DNA from: a virus
DNA: 39,047 nt
Strand: one strand, 5' to 3'
Virus record (IMG/VR): IMGVR_UViG_3300037493_001544
Span: 1 to 39,047 of that record
In this document: piece after piece, positions 1,691-13,279 of the stretch
Numbering within the stretch: the first letter of the stretch is position 1
Layout: the number at the start of each line of letters is the position of its first letter
Position numbers and translations under genes: made by a program
The notes under the pieces: model-generated
Databases searched by the model: none
What the model was told of the DNA's origin: nothing
The model's input: only the letters and a program-made list of their open reading frames with translations

Positions 1691-3340
1691 ATGGCTATAC
1701 CATCTAGACAAATAGGTTGGAAAACAGAAGATAACCTTTTATGGCAGATCTCTAAACAGCTACAATATCTAACACAAGTAACATCAACAGTAGTTGGTGG
1801 TTCATCAGGTCCATTTAAATATAACACTAACACTACAGGTATAGAACCTTGTTTAGGCACTAATGATGCGAGTGGAACATTATCAACTATTGGTGGTGGT
1901 CAATATAATACTGCTTCTTGTGATAAGTCTTTTGTAGGTGGTGGTTATTGTAATATTTCATCAAATTATTATTCAACAGTTGGTGGTGGTAGTTATAATA
2001 CTGCTTCTGGTGCAAATTCTACAATTGGTGGAGGTAAAGTAAATACTGCTTCTGGAATTTCTTCAACTGTTGGTGGTGGTTCAACTAATACTGCTTCTGC
2101 AAGAAATTCATCTGTTGGTGGTGGAAAATCAAATACTTCTTCTGGAATTTCTTCAACTGTTGGTGGTGGTGCTTCAAATATTGCTTCGGGTTATTATTCT
2201 ACTATTGGTGGTGGAACTGGAAATTATGCTTGTATTAATTATTCAACAATTGGTGGTGGTCGTCAAAATAGTGCATGTGGAGAATTTTCAACAATAGGTG
2301 GTGGTGTTACTAATACTGCTTCTGGTTTTAATTCAACAATAGGAGGTGGTCAATCTAATACTGCTTCTGGTTATTATTCTATTATTGGTGGTGGTCTTTC
2401 AAATACTGCTTCTGGTTGTTATTCAATAATTGGTGGTGGAGATAGCAATATTGCTTCTTGTTATTTTGCAACTATTGGAGGTGGTAAGTTTAACTATGCT
2501 ACTAATCAATACGCAACGATTGCAGGTGGTCTTCAAAACTATTCTTGCGGACAGGTTTCTTTTGTTGGTGCAGGAGTTCAAAATTTGGCTTATGGAAACT
2601 TATCGGTAATTGGTGGTGGATTACAGAACTATGCGTATTGTACATTTACCGCAGTAGTTGGAGGTCAACTCAATGAAGCAATTAATAATTTTGCGATTGT
2701 AGGAGGTGGTTATAAAAATAGTGCGATTGCAGGTTTATCTACCATATTTGGCGGAAGTTATAATGTCGTAACTCAAACTTTTTCAAATATACTTGGGGGT
2801 TATCGTAGTACAGTATCAGGAGTGCAGTCATCTATTGTCGGTGGAGAATATAATATAGTTAGTGGAGCAAGGTCTTTTATTGGGGGAGGTCGTCAAAACG
2901 TTATTTCATCACAATATTCAATAATTGGGGGAGGTCGTCAAAATAACGCTTTAAGAAATTGTTCAACAATTGGTGGTGGTTCTAATAATACTTCTTCTGG
3001 TTATGGTTCAACAATTGGTGGTGGTAGAAATAATACTGCTTCAGGAGCTTGTTCAACAATAGGAGGTGGTTATCAAAATACTGCATCTGGTTATTATTCT
3101 TCTGTTGGTGGTGGTTATGATAATACTGCTTCTGGTTGTGCTTCAGCAATATTAGGAGGGCAATATAACACAACAAATACTTGTGATTCTGCAATGATTG
3201 TAGGAAGCAATATAACTGCCGATAGAGTGTGTACTACATTTGTAAATAACTTATCAATTAAAAATATACCTACTGCAAGTGCAGGTTTGCCAAGTGGTTC
3301 TGTATGGAGTAATGTTGGAATATTAAATATTGTACCTTAA
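1691..3340 (+). CDS. Repeat-fibre protein: anchor domain plus 30 tandem 15-residue beta-roll-like repeats
   Basis: This 549-residue protein is probably a tail-fibre or surface adhesin. Residues 1-30 form a short module (MAIPSRQIGW ... LLWQISKQL) shared with the small gene that follows. Residues from about 64 to 513 form 30 uninterrupted repeats of 15 residues with pattern S-T-I-G-G-G-x-x-N-T-A-S-G-x-x. The pattern recalls YadA/Hep_Hag head repeats, which fold as trimeric beta-rolls. Variable residues cluster at repeat positions 7-8 and 14-15. Repeats 1-13 and 25-28 are near-uniform, while 14-24 are divergent. The last residues (IPTASAGLPSGSVWSN) resemble a short tail-protein cap. A host-recognition role is inferred. 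Confidence 0.8.
   Translation: MAIPSRQIGWKTEDNLLWQISKQLQYLTQVTSTVVGGSSGPFKYNTNTTGIEPCLGTNDASGTLSTIGGGQYNTASCDKSFVGGGYCNISSNYYSTVGGGSYNTASGANSTIGGGKVNTASGISSTVGGGSTNTASARNSSVGGGKSNTSSGISSTVGGGASNIASGYYSTIGGGTGNYACINYSTIGGGRQNSACGEFSTIGGGVTNTASGFNSTIGGGQSNTASGYYSIIGGGLSNTASGCYSIIGGGDSNIASCYFATIGGGKFNYATNQYATIAGGLQNYSCGQVSFVGAGVQNLAYGNLSVIGGGLQNYAYCTFTAVVGGQLNEAINNFAIVGGGYKNSAIAGLSTIFGGSYNVVTQTFSNILGGYRSTVSGVQSSIVGGEYNIVSGARSFIGGGRQNVISSQYSIIGGGRQNNALRNCSTIGGGSNNTSSGYGSTIGGGRNNTASGACSTIGGGYQNTASGYYSSVGGGYDNTASGCASAILGGQYNTTNTCDSAMIVGSNITADRVCTTFVNNLSIKNIPTASAGLPSGSVWSNVGILNIVP
1880..3229 (+). repeat. 30 x 45-bp in-frame tandem repeat array
   Basis: The coding array has a 45-bp period built on GGTGGTGGT (Gly-Gly-Gly) and AATACTGCTTCTGG (Asn-Thr-Ala-Ser-Gly). 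Outer units are close to identical at DNA level. Central units (about 2465-2960) differ in codons and residues. Unit number could change by recombination without breaking the frame. Confidence 0.8.
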
Positions 3341-4584: not shown

Positions 4585-4824
4585 ATGGGAAGCATTAATT
4601 CAAGACCTTTAAAGGCTTATGTTAGATTCGATGGATCTGGCAGAATAGTTGCAGGAAGTTTGATTCTTAGAAAGAACAAACCTAAAGTTGGTAAATGGAA
4701 AGAGATTCCAGCATATGAGTGCTGTAATTATACTACCACTACAACCACTACAGCTGCTCCAACAACAACAAGTACAACAACTGTAGCTCCAACTACTACT
4801 ACAACAACAACAATACCTGGATAA
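4585..4824 (+). CDS. Anchor-B plus Thr/Pro-rich tail protein, copy 1
   Basis: A 79-residue protein with two parts. Residues 8-49 form a compact domain (LKAYVRFDGSGRIV ... KPKVGKWKEI ... ECC). Residues 51-79 are almost only Thr with Ala-Pro breaks. The domain is closely related to that of the next gene, so the two are tandem duplicates. The Cys pair just before the tail could hold subunits together. A surface decoration or short-fibre role is inferred from the mucin-like tail and the fibre-gene context. Its function is otherwise unknown. Confidence 0.7.
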   Translation: MGSINSRPLKAYVRFDGSGRIVAGSLILRKNKPKVGKWKEIPAYECCNYTTTTTTTAAPTTTSTTTVAPTTTTTTTIPG

Positions 4825-4826
4825 TC

Positions 4827-5039
4827 ATGGCTAGAAGTAATAACAATAATAAGCTTAAAGCTTTTGTACGTTTTGATGGTTCAGGACGTATTGTACCTAG
4901 TAGTTTAATTGTACAAGCATTTAAACCAAAGGTTGGTAACTGGCAAGAAATAGATGCTAAAGAATGTTGTAATTATACAACTACAACCACCACAACTATA
5001 GCACCTACTACAACCACCACAACTACTGGTCCAGCATAA
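4827..5039 (+). CDS. Anchor-B plus Thr/Pro-rich tail protein, copy 2
   Basis: A 70-residue paralogue of the gene two bases upstream: the same LKAxVRFDGSGRIV core, the same KPKVGxWxEI segment, and the same ECCNYTTTTTTT junction into a shorter Thr/Pro tail. The N-terminus differs (an Asn-rich stretch), which suggests the copies have diverged. The tail differs in length from copy 1, as expected if ACW triplet repeats expand and contract. The start uses the AATCATGGC context. The role is unknown and likely matches copy 1. Confidence 0.7.
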   Translation: MARSNNNNKLKAFVRFDGSGRIVPSSLIVQAFKPKVGNWQEIDAKECCNYTTTTTTTIAPTTTTTTTGPA

Positions 5040-7802: not shown

Positions 7803-8009
7803 ATGAGAATATATGAACCTAAGAATAGAATAGATGTTACAACACCCAAGGGAGATGGGGTAGTGTGGCTTGTTACAGATTATGGAACAGAGACAGACAC
7901 CATCTATACAATAATAATTAATCAAACAGGAGAACTTTGGCAATATACCCATCGTGATCTTATTGTTAAACCCAATATAACATTTAAACGCTATGGCAAA
8001 AATTATTAA
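7803..8009 (+). CDS. Small beta-rich protein, unknown function
   Basis: A 68-residue protein beginning MRIYEPKNRIDVTTPKG, with alternating hydrophobic residues (VVWLVTDYG, YTIIIN, ELWQYT) that suggest a small beta barrel. From memory, proteins of this pattern (DVTTPKGxGxxWLVT ... TGELW) are frequent in Bacteroidota phages, with no role assigned. Its last 17 nt overlap the start of the Lys-rich gene at 7993. Confidence 0.7.
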   Translation: MRIYEPKNRIDVTTPKGDGVVWLVTDYGTETDTIYTIIINQTGELWQYTHRDLIVKPNITFKRYGKNY

Positions 8010-8508
8010 AAAAGCACAGAATGGTGCTAAAGAAAAATTAGACAAAAAGTTTAATGAGATTTATGCATCTAAGAAAAATGATTCTATTAAAGAATCTAAT
8101 AGAGTTTTACCTAAAACATACGCTATGCTTATGAAAATTAGTGGTAAATCTCCTAGTTCTAAACAGTTAAATAATACTCAAGATTACATAAATAAAGAAA
8201 TGGTGAGAATTAAAAAAGGTGACACCCCTTTAAATGCTAAAGGAAATGCAATTAAGGAAATTTCTAAAGTTAAAATTGATAGAAATGGTGGAACTACTAA
8301 AAAGAAAATGAAGAACGGTGGTTCTTTAACTGGTCTTAAAGCTTCTGCTAAACGTGTAGGTCCTGTAGATCCTAAAGGTGCTTGGACTAAGGTGCAAGAG
8401 AAAACATTAAAAGGTGCTAAAGGTAAAGCTAAACTTACTGCAGATAAACAACTTGGTGCTACCAAAATGAAAGCTGGTGGTAAAATGTCTAAAGGTAAAA
8501 AGTGCTAA
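7993..8508 (+). CDS. Lys-rich small protein with IKKAQNG motif
   Basis: A 171-residue, very basic protein. It opens with KIIKKAQNG, carries MKNGGSLTGLKASAKRVGPVDPKGAW in the middle, split here as a Gly-Gly break followed by a basic helix, and ends in MKAGGKMSKGKKC. The repeated KKAQNG and K(N/A)GG units recur in the neighbours at 8512, 8964 and 10547. High Lys and low aromatic content fit a DNA-binding or internal virion protein, but nothing proves either. There is no TM or signal peptide. Confidence 0.7.
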   Translation: MAKIIKKAQNGAKEKLDKKFNEIYASKKNDSIKESNRVLPKTYAMLMKISGKSPSSKQLNNTQDYINKEMVRIKKGDTPLNAKGNAIKEISKVKIDRNGGTTKKKMKNGGSLTGLKASAKRVGPVDPKGAWTKVQEKTLKGAKGKAKLTADKQLGATKMKAGGKMSKGKKC

Positions 8509-8511
8509 GTC

Positions 8512-8961
8512 ATGGCTACAGCTAAGAAACCTATTAAAAAAGCTCAAAAAGGAGCAATGCTAAAGCAAGCACCTAAGACAAGACTAGAAGATATTACTAG
8601 TACAAAATTAAAAGATGTACCAAGAAGAGCAATTAATTTTGGTAAAAGATTAATTAATAATACTATTGATGATGTAAAGAATGCTACAGTGGGAGATGTT
8701 GCTAAATCATTAATACCAACTGGTGTTGGTAAAACTACTAAAACATCTACTAAAAAACCAGATCGTGTATTAGCTGCTATGGCTAAAAAGAATGGTGGAT
8801 CTGTAAAAGCTAAGGATGGTAAATGGATTCAGAAAGCAGTAAAAGGAATGCGTAAAGATAAACCTTGTACTGGACCTAAACTTGGCAGTAAAACTTGTCC
8901 TCCTGGAAGTAAAAGATATAATCTTGCCAAAACTTTTAGTAAAATGAATAAAAAGAAATAA
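8512..8961 (+). CDS. Lys-rich small protein with IKKAQKG motif and Cys-Pro C-terminal module
   Basis: A 149-residue basic protein. It has IKKAQKG near the start, a KKNGGSVKAKDG break at about 96-107, and a C-terminal module around KPCTGPKLGSKTCPPGSKRY with two Cys, followed by a short basic helix. The C-terminal module looks like a discrete, conserved unit that I recall only loosely from other Bacteroidota phages. It starts three bases after the previous stop, in the TCATGGC context. Function unknown. Internal virion protein or DNA condensation are possibilities. Confidence 0.7.
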   Translation: MATAKKPIKKAQKGAMLKQAPKTRLEDITSTKLKDVPRRAINFGKRLINNTIDDVKNATVGDVAKSLIPTGVGKTTKTSTKKPDRVLAAMAKKNGGSVKAKDGKWIQKAVKGMRKDKPCTGPKLGSKTCPPGSKRYNLAKTFSKMNKKK

Positions 8962-8963
8962 TC

Positions 8964-9614
8964 ATGTCTAAGTTAAATCCCCAAAAAGCATCAGCCTATG
9001 TAGGTCCTGGTGTATTACGTAAAGGTGGTAAGATAACACCTGTTCCTAATGGTCCTCTTATCAAAAAGAAAGGTCCATATGCAGGAAGCACATTAAAATC
9101 TGGTGGTGCTATTAAGAAAGCACAGAACGGTACTAAGACAAAAGATAGTACAGCTTACTTTAATAAAGAAAAAGAATATAGATTTAAAGAAGCTAGAGAA
9201 GCAGGTAAGCTTGGTTTTAGAAAATCTGCAGATGATGAAATGAAAAAAGGAATGGCAGCTGGAGAAAACGCAATGAGACAAAAACTTAAAGGAATGCCAG
9301 GATATGATAAAAATGGTTACCCTATTAAGAAAAAGAAAGCTATGATGGGTAGTAGCATATTTAAAGACAATCCTATCTATAAAAAGAGTACTGAGGCTCG
9401 TGGTATGATTGGAAAACTTTATGGTATACCAGGTAAACCAATTGTAAAGAATGGTGGTATGTTAAAGCGTGCTGATGGTTCATATTCACAACGTGGATTA
9501 TGGGATAACTTGAGAAGCAAAGCTGCTCAAAATAAAAAAACTGGTGCAAAACCTAAAGCTCCTACCAAAGCAATGTTGACTCAGGAGAAAAAAATAAAAT
9601 CTAAAGGAAAATGA
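8964..9614 (+). CDS. Lys-rich protein with IKKAQNG motif
   Basis: A 216-residue basic protein with the SGGAIKKAQNG unit at about 47-57, a helical charged segment (about 65-110, rich in KEAREAGK-like runs), PGYDKNGYPIKKKK in the middle, and a KNGGML break near 162. It belongs to the same family-like cluster as its neighbours. Its TGA stop overlaps the ATG of a GIY-YIG endonuclease (ATGA), so the endonuclease is inserted directly behind it. Function unknown. Confidence 0.7.
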   Translation: MSKLNPQKASAYVGPGVLRKGGKITPVPNGPLIKKKGPYAGSTLKSGGAIKKAQNGTKTKDSTAYFNKEKEYRFKEAREAGKLGFRKSADDEMKKGMAAGENAMRQKLKGMPGYDKNGYPIKKKKAMMGSSIFKDNPIYKKSTEARGMIGKLYGIPGKPIVKNGGMLKRADGSYSQRGLWDNLRSKAAQNKKTGAKPKAPTKAMLTQEKKIKSKGK

Positions 9615-10234
9615 TATTAGATATTAGTAATGAACATAAACAAAAATACTTTTCTCAAAAAGAGAAAGGAGGAGTTGTTTATAAAATCACTAATCAAATT
9701 GATGGTAAATTCTATATAGGAAGTACAAACAATTTAATAAAAAGGTATTATACTCATATTAATCATATAAGAACTAATAAATCTACATGTGTAAAACTAA
9801 TTAGAGCAGTTAATAAACATGGAGAACATAACTTTACATTTGAAATTTTATGTGAGTGTTCTATTGAAGAAACACTAAAGATTGAACAAAGTTATATAGA
9901 TAGTTTAAATCCTACGTATAACATTGCTAAAATTGCTGGAAGTAATCTTGGAATCAAAAGAACAGAAGAAGTCAAACTTAAAAAATCTATATCTCAAAAA
10001 GAAAATTGGAAAGATGATGATTATAGAAGTAAACATTTAGAAAATTTATCAAAGAATTGGAAAAGTGGAGCTTCTCATAAAATGGCCAAGCTTACAGAAG
10101 AACAAGTAATTGAAATTAAAAAACAATTAGCAAATGGTCTTCTTCCTAAACAGGTAGCAGACAAACTTAAACTTAGTTATTACTCTATAAAAGACATACA
10201 TAGAGGAAAAACTTGGAAAAATATAAATATTTAA
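9611..10234 (+). CDS. GIY-YIG homing endonuclease (free-standing)
   Basis: A 207-residue nuclease. The GIY-YIG domain occupies about 18-105: GVVYKI (GIY position), FYIGST (YIG position), Arg45 in NLIKRY and Glu92 in IEQSYIDSLNPTYN match the expected catalytic Arg and metal-binding Glu. A NUMOD3-like segment at about 113-130 (GIKRTEEVKLKKSIS) and a C-terminal helix-turn-helix at about 160-205 (LTEEQVIEIKK ... YYSIKDIHRGKTW) would bind DNA. It interrupts the Lys-rich gene array and starts by ATGA overlap. Such genes spread by cutting relatives that lack them. No intron or intein is evident. Confidence 0.88.
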   Translation: MILDISNEHKQKYFSQKEKGGVVYKITNQIDGKFYIGSTNNLIKRYYTHINHIRTNKSTCVKLIRAVNKHGEHNFTFEILCECSIEETLKIEQSYIDSLNPTYNIAKIAGSNLGIKRTEEVKLKKSISQKENWKDDDYRSKHLENLSKNWKSGASHKMAKLTEEQVIEIKKQLANGLLPKQVADKLKLSYYSIKDIHRGKTWKNINI

Positions 10235-10246
10235 ATCTGAGAAACA

Positions 10247-10528
10247 ATGGCTAAAACCCCAAGCTGGCAAAGAAAAGAAGGAAAGAATCCTTCTGGAGGA
10301 CTAAATGCTAAAGGTGTAGCTTCATATAGAAAAGCTAACCCTGGTAGCAAGCTTAAGACAGCTGTTACAACTAAACCTTCTAAGTTAAAACCTGGAAGTA
10401 AAGCTGCTGGTAGACGTAAGTCTTTCTGTAGTAGAATGTCTGGTATGAAGAAGAAGCTTACATCTGCTAAGACAGCAAATGATCCTAACTCAAGAATAAA
10501 TAAATCTCTACGTAAGTGGAATTGTTAA
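10247..10528 (+). CDS. Lys-rich protein, DUF-like small phage protein
   Basis: A 93-residue, very basic protein with the conserved-looking core WQRKEGKNPSGGLNAKGVASYR at residues 7-28, then KSFCSRMSGMKKKL at about 59-72 and a C-terminal NDPNSRINKSLRKWNC. The pattern NPxGGLNxKGxxSYR ... SFCxRMxGxxxK ... DPxSRINxSLRxW is one I recall from many phage genomes, usually annotated as a structural or unknown protein. It follows the GIY-YIG gene by 12 nt. A capsid or DNA-associated role is plausible but unproven. Confidence 0.75.
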   Translation: MAKTPSWQRKEGKNPSGGLNAKGVASYRKANPGSKLKTAVTTKPSKLKPGSKAAGRRKSFCSRMSGMKKKLTSAKTANDPNSRINKSLRKWNC

Positions 10529-10546
10529 CCTTATAAATAATAAATC

Positions 10547-11161
10547 ATGGCAACAATTAAAAAGGCACAACTTGGTGGCTTAATAAAAAAAGGAGTAAAA
10601 GCTGTTGAAAAAACAGCTCCTAAAAAAGCATTAACCTTATCTGAAAAAGTAAAAGAGGCAAAATGGCAAAAAAATAAAGGAAAATTTGGAATGACAGAAG
10701 ACATTTCATGGAAAGAATTTAAAAAAATAGGAAAAGATGCAAATAAAGGTACAACTGATATAAATCAAACTCCTAAATCTTCATCAGTTGTATTAACAGC
10801 AGAACAAAAAGCTAATAATGCTAGAATCTTAAAAGAAATAAGAGAGGGTAAAAGAAAGAATGGTGGTCCTGTTAAAAAAGTAGTTAAGAAAGCTAAATCT
10901 GGTACTTCTTTAGGAATGAAATCTGTTAAAGCTGGATTTGATAAAAACCCTGGTGTAACTAGAGCTGATATTATTACAGCTGCTAAAGGAAAAGCTAAGT
11001 CTGGTAGTTCTATTAAGAAAGCTCAAAATGGTTATCAAAAGAATAAAGGATATGAAGCCATAAAAGAAAAAGAGTTAAAAACAATAGCTAAAACTAAAAA
11101 GACTGCTAAGACTATGAAGTCTGGTGGTAAAATGACAAAATGTAAATATGGCTGCAAGTAA
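10547..11161 (+). CDS. Lys-rich protein with two IKKAQ motifs
   Basis: A 204-residue basic protein containing ATIKKAQLGG at the start and SSIKKAQNGYQ at about 158-168, so the motif occurs twice in one chain. It also has KNGGPVKK and KSGGKMTK breaks, and a C-terminal Cys pair (KCKYGCK). A predicted helix with the DISWKEFKKIGK sequence lies at about 52-63. It is similar in composition to 7993, 8512 and 8964. Its last 14 nt overlap the next small gene. Function unknown. Confidence 0.7.
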   Translation: MATIKKAQLGGLIKKGVKAVEKTAPKKALTLSEKVKEAKWQKNKGKFGMTEDISWKEFKKIGKDANKGTTDINQTPKSSSVVLTAEQKANNARILKEIREGKRKNGGPVKKVVKKAKSGTSLGMKSVKAGFDKNPGVTRADIITAAKGKAKSGSSIKKAQNGYQKNKGYEAIKEKELKTIAKTKKTAKTMKSGGKMTKCKYGCK

Positions 11162-11325: not shown

Positions 11326-11352
11326 AAAGCCCTCTTAGTGAGGGCTTTTTTT
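11326..11352 (+). terminator. Strong convergent terminator
   Basis: A perfect 9-bp stem (AAAGCCCTC at 11326-11334, GAGGGCTTT at 11340-11348) with a 5-nt loop is followed by a T-run to 11352. It closes the + strand arm. The - strand arm ends at 11351, so the two arms converge exactly here. Confidence 0.9.
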
Positions 11353-11890
11353 ATGTTAAAGAATTATAAACAGATAGCACTTTGGGTATATAGAATATAG
11401 TTTTTGCTTTCTCATAGCACTCACGTGCAAATACACCATCAGCATCATATCTATTTAACACCCATCTTGTATTTCCTATACATTCTATAGATGTAACAAA
11501 ATTATGACTATCTATAGTTCCTACAGATATATTAGCTCCTTCTAGTCTTATACTTCCATCTTTATCAGCTTGTTTAAAAGATATAAAATCTTCTAAGTCT
11601 CCATTTTTTATTTCATCCCATAATGTAGGTTGCATAATAGTATCATCATCATTGAAATAAATATGACCATCTGTAACTAAATCAAGAGCAAAGTTTCTTT
11701 GTGCATTACCTGATATACTATTAATATCTTTAATTGCATATGCTTCACAATTATCTGGAATATTTTCTGGTACTTCTGGTAAATCAAATACAACAATCCA
11801 CCTATATTTTTCTCTAGGAATATTTATACTCTTAGATATAACATCTAAGTTTTGTGGTCTTGAACAGGGAGTAATTATATTTAAGAACAT
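11351..11890 (-). CDS. Small GT-A-type glycosyltransferase
   Basis: A 179-residue protein with a GT-A nucleotide-binding layout: NIITPCSRPQNL near the start, GNAQRNFALD at about 61-70, and an acidic DxD-like cluster in IYFNDDDTIM (Asp81-83). It is shorter than most family 2 enzymes, so it may be a minimal catalytic domain. It is the third gene of a three-gene cassette (GT, methyltransferase, GT) and overlaps the methyltransferase end by 10 nt. Its substrate is unknown. Surface or virion glycans are the natural guess. Confidence 0.68.
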   Translation of the reverse strand: MFLNIITPCSRPQNLDVISKSINIPREKYRWIVVFDLPEVPENIPDNCEAYAIKDINSISGNAQRNFALDLVTDGHIYFNDDDTIMQPTLWDEIKNGDLEDFISFKQADKDGSIRLEGANISVGTIDSHNFVTSIECIGNTRWVLNRYDADGVFARECYEKAKTIFYIPKVLSVYNSLT

Positions 11891-12537
11891 GGCTTATCAT
11901 TTCTATGTAATACAAGAAGCTTATCATTATTCCATCCAGGAGAATGTTTTAAATTATGATTAGCAAATATAAATGTAGCAGAAGAGAAATAATCAGATAA
12001 ATGATTTATTTGATTTGCATAATCTTCTTCTTTAGCACTAATAAATATATCCTCTATAATTAGAAATCCTCCAGGTTTTAAATGTTTGTATGCCACATTG
12101 ATAAACTTAATTTGATCCTCAAACACATGTGTTGAATCATCCATAAGTATATCAAAGTTACTTCCTGCATTAATTAGTCCTCCTTGAATAGATGATGGAT
12201 TAGTAACATCCATCTTACTGTATATGCAGTTTGGTATGTTATCACCAATTGCTTTATCTAATCTACTATCAAACCATTCAAATCCATACAATGTAGCATT
12301 AGGAAAGAATTCTCTCCAAGAAAGCATTGAATGATTCTCTAATATACCTAGTTCTCCTATACGTAGATCATTATATCTAATATTAGAGAATAATAGATTA
12401 TATATAGAAGTGTATGCATGCTTATGTAAGTTTGCATCTTTGTTATATGGAGATTTATCTGTTGGATATTTCACTCCAAGAAGACATAATTCTGTAATAG
12501 AATTAGTTGAATCTATTGATATACTATTTATGTTCAT
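11881..12537 (-). CDS. SAM-dependent O-methyltransferase, likely sugar methyltransferase
   Basis: A 218-residue class I methyltransferase-like protein. The pattern recalls macrolide/sugar O-methyltransferases of the MycE/TylF type: YPTDKSPY near the start (Y-G-T-D-K position), a motif I region at IGELGI (60-65), YGFEWFD after a strand, DILMDDSTH (Asp133-134, His137) as the metal-binding and catalytic region, and LKPGGFLIIEDIF (Glu162-Asp163). Those enzymes methylate sugar hydroxyls using Mg. It overlaps glycosyltransferase genes on both sides (10 and 14 nt), which supports methylation of a transferred sugar. Confidence 0.7.
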   Translation of the reverse strand: MNINSISIDSTNSITELCLLGVKYPTDKSPYNKDANLHKHAYTSIYNLLFSNIRYNDLRIGELGILENHSMLSWREFFPNATLYGFEWFDSRLDKAIGDNIPNCIYSKMDVTNPSSIQGGLINAGSNFDILMDDSTHVFEDQIKFINVAYKHLKPGGFLIIEDIFISAKEEDYANQINHLSDYFSSATFIFANHNLKHSPGWNNDKLLVLHRNDKPCS

Positions 12538-13279
12538 TGATATAATCTTTTAGCATTTGACTATAGTTTTTGTTCCATTGAGGCATAAGATGAACATCTC
12601 CTGTAGGGATTTGTCCTTTTCTTCTTAAGTTTTCTATATAATCACTATGTCTTTTTATAACACTAGGTCTATCTGCAGTGTCTGTTCCCATACCTGATTG
12701 GTGATATCCTCTACCACCCCACATATAAAACCAAGAACATTCTTCATTAGGAGGATCAGCTAATACCACTTTATCTCTTCCTAAATTATGTAGAGCTACA
12801 ACTAATGTCATATCTCCACCAGCGTTCTCAATTGGACTTCTTCCAATTTCTTCCCATGCTCTCTTGCTATATACAATACCTGAATTACCAAGAGCCATTA
12901 GATCTGTTATATTAGGTTCATTATAGAACACACCATTTTGCCAGTGTAAAAGATTAGCATCTGGTCTCCAGAACTTAGCTATATTAGATAGATGATTTGG
13001 TAAAGCTACATCATCATCATCCCATACAGCAATTAGTTCTCCAGAACATCTTTCTATAGCATAGTTTTCTTTATCTCCAATTGTGGAGAATGTCTCATCT
13101 AGATTATAAATCTTAATTTCTGGATGATCAAATATTAACTTCTGTAGAGGGTAATCATTAACTATAATTAGTTCTTTCTTACCTGGATACTCTTGTAGGA
13201 GGAAACTTTGTACAGCTTCCTCCAGAGTATCTACTCTTCCATAGGTTATACACTTACAACTAATAAAAGGATATTCCAT
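12524..13279 (-). CDS. Family 2 glycosyltransferase
   Basis: A 251-residue GT-A enzyme. The first strand and loop (ISCKCITYGR, then LEEAVQSFLLQEYPGKKELIIVND) are classic for family 2, and the DxD region is ELIAVWDDDDVALPNHL (Asp87-90). A later GGDMTLV stretch fits the acceptor/base region. It has no TM helix, so it is a soluble enzyme. It is the first gene of the sugar cassette and ends with TAG inside the methyltransferase gene. Donor and acceptor sugars cannot be told from sequence. Confidence 0.85.
   Translation of the reverse strand: MEYPFISCKCITYGRVDTLEEAVQSFLLQEYPGKKELIIVNDYPLQKLIFDHPEIKIYNLDETFSTIGDKENYAIERCSGELIAVWDDDDVALPNHLSNIAKFWRPDANLLHWQNGVFYNEPNITDLMALGNSGIVYSKRAWEEIGRSPIENAGGDMTLVVALHNLGRDKVVLADPPNEECSWFYMWGGRGYHQSGMGTDTADRPSVIKRHSDYIENLRRKGQIPTGDVHLMPQWNKNYSQMLKDYINEHK

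Follow-up and report, generated by a model that had tools for sequence, protein, structure and literature searches.

A short KKAQxG tag on unrelated basic proteins of crAss-like phages is a candidate signal for loading into the virion

In phage T4, basic internal proteins share a signal at the N-terminus, some 10 residues long, known as the capsid targeting sequence (CTS) (PMC9026906). The phage crAss001 contains several MDa of cargo, and its published structure names no sorting signal. In that structure residues 425–552 of gp45 (cargo protein 1) are attached to the portal on the inner side of the capsid (PMC10172136).

Here, we describe a cluster of Lys-rich proteins with a short tag whose best reading, by analogy, is that it works like the T4 CTS but is not the CTS. 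As in T4 IPI, IPII, IPIII and Alt, a signal of about 10 residues stands at the N-terminus of small basic proteins that otherwise differ, and the set of carriers varies between related phages. Unlike the CTS, to which it is unrelated in sequence, the motif described here is found at internal positions too, as well as in a protein of the cargo-1 type. The CTS is cleaved by gp21, whereas no gp21 counterpart was found here with Peptidase_S77, the gp21 family, in a search without a positive-control match; the tag consensus also contains no Glu, in contrast to the T4 cleavage determinant (e.g. LIE). A further difference is that head packaging is here inferred from sequences. With crAss001 the relatives of our locus share a large protein that is homologous to gp45 by profile and the gene order ring, muzzle, cargo 1, cargo 2, large ORFs. 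However, the published crAss001 cargo list names no proteins like the small tagged basic ones.

The window (the whole stretch of DNA analysed, 39,047 nucleotides) is, judging from its relatives, a 39 kb fragment of a crAss-like phage. These relatives, found by protein similarity, are metagenomic contigs of about 104–119 kb with mechanically called ORFs. In one of them, G001, the portal resembles those of crAss-like phages, and CrAss_Ring_1, CrAss_Ring_2 and crAss_MUZ were all matched. The cluster forms the end of the plus strand structural and lysis module, where it abuts minus strand genes. Its features are as follows:

7993–8508, plus strand: Lys-rich protein of family A, 171 aa, charge about +31, consisting of tag, variable linker and conserved C-terminal core
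8005–8025, plus strand: IKKAQNG, N-terminal tag of family A
8308–8322, plus strand: MKNGG junction directly before core A
8323–8469, plus strand: conserved core A (SLTGLKASAKRVGPVDPKGAWTKVQ...DKQLGATKM)
8512–8961, plus strand: Lys-rich protein of family B, 149 aa, charge about +30
8533–8553, plus strand: IKKAQKG, N-terminal tag of family B
8788–8799, plus strand: KNGG junction before core B (WIQKAVKGMRKDKPCTG...LAKTF)
8964–9614, plus strand: Lys-rich protein of family C, 216 aa, charge about +37
9096–9131, plus strand: KSGG followed by AIKKAQNG, internal copy at residue 50 of family C
9447–9458, plus strand: KNGG junction before core C (MLKRADGSYSQRGLWDN...QEKKI)
9611–10234, plus strand: GIY-YIG homing endonuclease, untagged, between family C and the DUF6321 protein
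10247–10528, plus strand: DUF6321 protein (family E), 93 aa, naked in the window
10547–11161, plus strand: Lys-rich protein of family D, 204 aa, charge about +38, with C-terminal MKSGGKMTKCKYGCK
10556–10576, plus strand: IKKAQLG, N-terminal tag of family D
11012–11032, plus strand: IKKAQNG, second, internal copy of family D, after KSGSS
11326–11348, strandless: bidirectional terminator-like hairpin, closing the plus strand (late) operon against the minus strand genes

Beyond the hairpin, three consecutive minus strand genes (11351–13279) that resemble two glycosyltransferases and a methyltransferase end the minus strand module; relatives carry other gene sets at the same place. The endonuclease gene is missing at the matching place in G001 and G017. 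AlphaFold models of family A (pLDDT 61) and of the DUF6321 protein (pLDDT 70) were too uncertain for interpretation or searching. Among 50,697 phage records searched for isolates with families A and C there was no convincing match, a search of bacterial genomes for a host via a family A relative returned none, and a literature search for the KKAQxG motif found no phage paper; nor did any virion proteome of these phages come to light.

The first-pass annotation had reported the unit IKKAQ[N/K/L]G in four genes of the Lys-rich cluster (7993, 8512, 8964 and, twice, 10547). All five copies were recovered in these adjacent genes, beginning at 8005, 8533, 9111, 10556 and 11012, and a six-frame search of the window revealed no KKAQxG beyond them. 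Three start within the first eight residues of their proteins, and the two internal ones come after K-S-G-(G/S). The K(N/S/A)GG breaks described earlier were also confirmed, with seven occurrences in the four genes. Two genes within the cluster, those of the endonuclease and the DUF6321 protein, lack the motif. In composition-preserving shuffles of the cluster proteins KKAQxG occurred on average 0.011 times (maximum of 2 in 20,000 shuffles) against 5 observed, and these shuffles, together with permuted motifs, rule out chance or composition as its origin. Synonymous codons differ among the five copies, so that KKAQxG is a protein motif rather than a DNA repeat; these codon differences and the unrelated cores also rule out a recent duplication.

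The motif is present in relatives as well, mainly as an N-terminal tag, M-A-T-I-K-K-A-Q-x-G, and on at least five protein families. In an unbiased set of loci, retrieved with patterns from which the motif is absent, KKAQxG stands at most 20 residues from the start in 34 of 180 small basic ORFs, compared to 0.06 expected by shuffling, and in none of the 677 other ORFs; permuted motifs of the same letters occur 0–1 times. In 111 tags with the motif at residue 5, many of them fetched by the tag itself and thus describing the tag but not measuring its frequency, positions 2–4 are mostly A-T-I (I at position 4 in 93) and V, L or I is preferred at position 13. Q occupies its position in 34 of 41 N-terminal KKAxxG sites. 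In a set partly fetched by the tag, 149 of the 224 copies in basic proteins start within residues 1–10, in line with the short N-terminal element (about 10–19 residues) expected of a T4-type CTS.

Four loci of another viral lineage (L111, L112, L172, L189) encode long Lys/Gly-rich proteins (MKMSDLRAKARAIFG..) with repeated KKAxGG and one IKKAQGG. L111, L112 and L172 were rejected as tag carriers, being a different Lys/Gly-rich protein type with a single internal KKAQGG.

The earlier statement that the proteins otherwise differ was borne out by profile comparison. We assigned small proteins to families by simple sequence patterns, with DKQLGATKM as the core signature for A, CTG..LAKTF for B, RADGSxSQRGLWDN..QEKKI for C, VTRADI or DLNKDGK..CKYGC for D, and DUF6321 for E. 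With the motif removed, cores A–E matched each other at no more than 5% in hhalign, except for A and D (27% over a 12-residue tail); homology among the small proteins is not detectable outside the tag and the GG tail, and families A–D show no similarity to DUF6321. Nevertheless, each of the cores A–E occurs with the tag, and alignments of family A and DUF6321 revealed that a given core may lack the tag in certain phages yet carry it in others. Core A forms a naked protein of about 60 aa in some relatives, and in L053 the tag is fused directly to it, without a linker. On the evidence of these arrangements, the tag is portable.

DUF6321 (PF19846) comprises small basic proteins of cyanophages and pelagiphages, and the product of gene 10247, inside the cluster, is a clear member (10247–10525, 72.8 bits against a cut-off of 28.5). 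While it is untagged in the window, its counterparts in several relatives (L128, L147, L154, L161 and L163) carry MARIKKAQxG, or a variant close to it, together with a linker and K(N/S)GG or R(S)GG. The marine single-cell virus AG-345-E15 (MH319741.1, L219) encodes a DUF6321 protein 85% identical to that of gene 10247 but contains no KKAQxG, suggesting that phages have exchanged this gene; AG-345-E15 was therefore set aside as a relative for motif comparison.

In the near-complete relatives G001, G017 and G005 (78–124 ORFs each) the sole carrier of the motif apart from the cluster is a single large protein, with lengths of 1569, 1605 and 1051 aa, respectively. Across 24 scanned records, every motif site outside the cluster belongs to this protein, which is present in 20 of them. 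It starts with MKAQILKIAGVKSEKEFYKKYPSEEAFMKVHGKEFKKAQxG, and KKAxxG closes a conserved N-terminus of 42 residues, with K36, K37, A38 and G41 invariant in ten homologues. The protein contains 11–13% Lys+Arg and a glycine-rich hydrophobic segment, like a channel-forming protein. Its gene lies downstream of CrAss_Ring_2, CrAss_Ring_1 and crAss_MUZ (in G001, two small genes separate it from the muzzle) and, in G001, is followed by very large ORFs; gp45 occupies this position in crAss001.

Profile comparison of the large protein family with the gp45 family gave 97.0% (hhalign, E=1.2e-10) over gp45 residues 388–532, while the controls gp44, gp46, gp32 and gp50 reached at most 0.2%. By this match, the large protein is a homologue of cargo protein 1 of crAss001, the similarity covering the domain that is bound to the portal within the capsid. 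PF25725 (crAss_CARG1), a single-sequence model, did not match it directly, and no strict N-terminal KKAQxG was present in the nine gp45 homologues checked. A distant homologue (hhalign, 92.8%) in the cyanophage Lbo-JY46 of Leptolyngbya starts with MKIRIIGLPKAQIG. We did not count gp040 of phi4:1 as evidence: this protein, structural by MS/MS, was only weakly similar by tblastn to the large protein of G001, gave no profile match and has no strict KKAQxG. Other putative cargo proteins, namely a 940 aa protein and the giant ORFs at the RNA-polymerase position, do not carry the tag. Where the virion RNA polymerase is expected, G001 appears to have one uninterrupted ORF of about 4270 aa (30073–42894); two pieces of it were scanned and gave no Pfam match.

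The chances seem to us roughly even that the tag is a portable address signal of virion assembly, loading various basic proteins into the head alongside the cargo-1 homologue. Among the functions suggested at first pass (a packaging signal, a cleavage signal or a common DNA-contact unit), a head packaging signal fits these sequences best. The motif is a portable N-terminal tag on unrelated basic proteins, and its sole other carrier is the cargo protein 1 homologue; the loading itself stays a prediction. The small basic proteins would consist of a tag (approximately M-A-T-I-K-K-A-Q-x-G-x-K-V), a variable Lys-rich linker, a K(N/S)GG junction and a short conserved basic core. The tag would be read during virion assembly, most likely by the partner that recruits the cargo-1 homologue, at or near the portal or in an internal core, and would bring several different basic proteins into the head. 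There they would be stored with the DNA and probably ejected ahead of it. For the basic cores, DNA binding in the head and a role in the host once ejected are both possible. We infer presence in virions, the tag as loader and action on DNA or host after ejection.

Some observations speak against a loading tag. Nearly a third of the copies (29 of 95) are internal, which a pure N-terminal signal would not need. As 26 of these 29 come after K-x-G-G or K-x-G-x (read by eye), the internal copies also stand at a module boundary. Several cores, and the DUF6321 protein of the window, are untagged though presumably used alike. In some relatives (G003, G010) none of the cluster proteins has a strict tag, and their cargo-1 homologue reads KKAV or KKAK, so that the signal must be either dispensable or degenerate. 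Across genomes, there was no clear signal of co-variation between the state of the motif in the large protein and how many small proteins are tagged.

A tag common to the cargo-1 homologue and many small basic proteins offers a concrete, single-peptide hypothesis for cargo choice in crass-like phages, and it would allow cargo to be predicted from sequence in very abundant phages.

It is worth considering the junction before the cores separately. In tagged proteins, GG, usually as K(N/S)GG, lies at most 12 residues upstream of the core in 27 of 27 proteins with core A, 23 of 28 with B, 15 of 17 with C, 18 of 24 with D and 9 of 9 with E, and KNGG occurs 52 times versus 2.2 by shuffling. This suits an alternative in which the motif and/or K(N/S)GG is a maturation cleavage site, where a phage or host protease would remove tag and linker and free the naked core in the prohead. 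A cut after GG in tagged DUF6321 would leave a nearly naked protein, and there is a precedent in the T4 tag, which is cut by gp21 (PMC9026906). We nevertheless regard cleavage as unlikely. HMM searches of eight relatives found no known maturation protease: Peptidase_S78 and C39, with working positive controls, gave no match, nor did Peptidase_S77 and C48, whose searches were both without a positive-control match. For 40 G001 proteins, most of them structural or unknown, the first 25 families listed include no proteases other than lysis peptidases. The residue just after the motif is not conserved, and the crAss001 paper makes no mention of proteolysis (PMC10172136). GG may simply be a flexible hinge; the junction is suggestive of processing or, equally, of a hinge. 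It is possible, albeit doubtful, that a portable N-terminal loading tag together with a payload-releasing GG junction packs a changing set of small basic proteins alongside the ejection protein cargo 1; crass-like phages would then have a cargo-sorting code independent of that of T4, and new head proteins could be recruited by gaining about 10 residues.

The motif-bearing proteins of the cluster are without exception strongly basic (pI 10.3–10.6, charge +30 to +38), and the Ascovirus protein P64 is a known cationic viral protein that condenses packaged DNA (PMC6163548). The motif could be a unit through which Lys-rich proteins in general contact nucleic acids or gain charge, with no role in sorting, but this seems rather improbable to us. 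The fixed order K-K-A-Q-x-G is far above both composition and permuted controls. Also, the DNA-contact unit proposed earlier is made less likely by the position of the motif, which is near the N-terminus instead of being spread along the proteins and does not vary in the large protein, although Lys+Arg make up only 11–13% of that protein.

Modules are clearly shuffled between genes, with combined cores and tags with or without linkers. This would agree with a shared N-terminus that is either left over from duplicated genes or exchanged cassettes or else an enhancer of translation starts, and that has no function at the protein level. We find this quite improbable, as the residues stay while the codons vary and the tags flank completely different cores; a start-codon effect leaves the internal copies and the cargo-1 homologue unexplained. 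Finally, although certain internal proteins of T4 are active in the host once they have been ejected (PMC9026906), a tag that acts after infection as a host-side signal, directing injected or late-made proteins to e.g. the membrane, nucleoid or RNA polymerase, is highly improbable, given that the motif is common to a putative virion cargo protein with a channel-like segment and not to early genes, and that the cluster lies within the plus strand structural module.

Other genes of the window are repetitive. Two small paralogues at 4585–4824 and 4827–5039 (LKAYVRFDGSGRIV..) have long Thr-rich repeat ends (TTTTTTT), and a protein of 549 aa (1691–3340) consists of many degenerate IGGGxxNTASGxxST repeats. 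The N-terminus of the latter, MAIPSRQIGW..LLWQISKQLE, is found again in the gene that follows (3354) and in two G001 genes, which suggests a common virion anchor on variable fibres.
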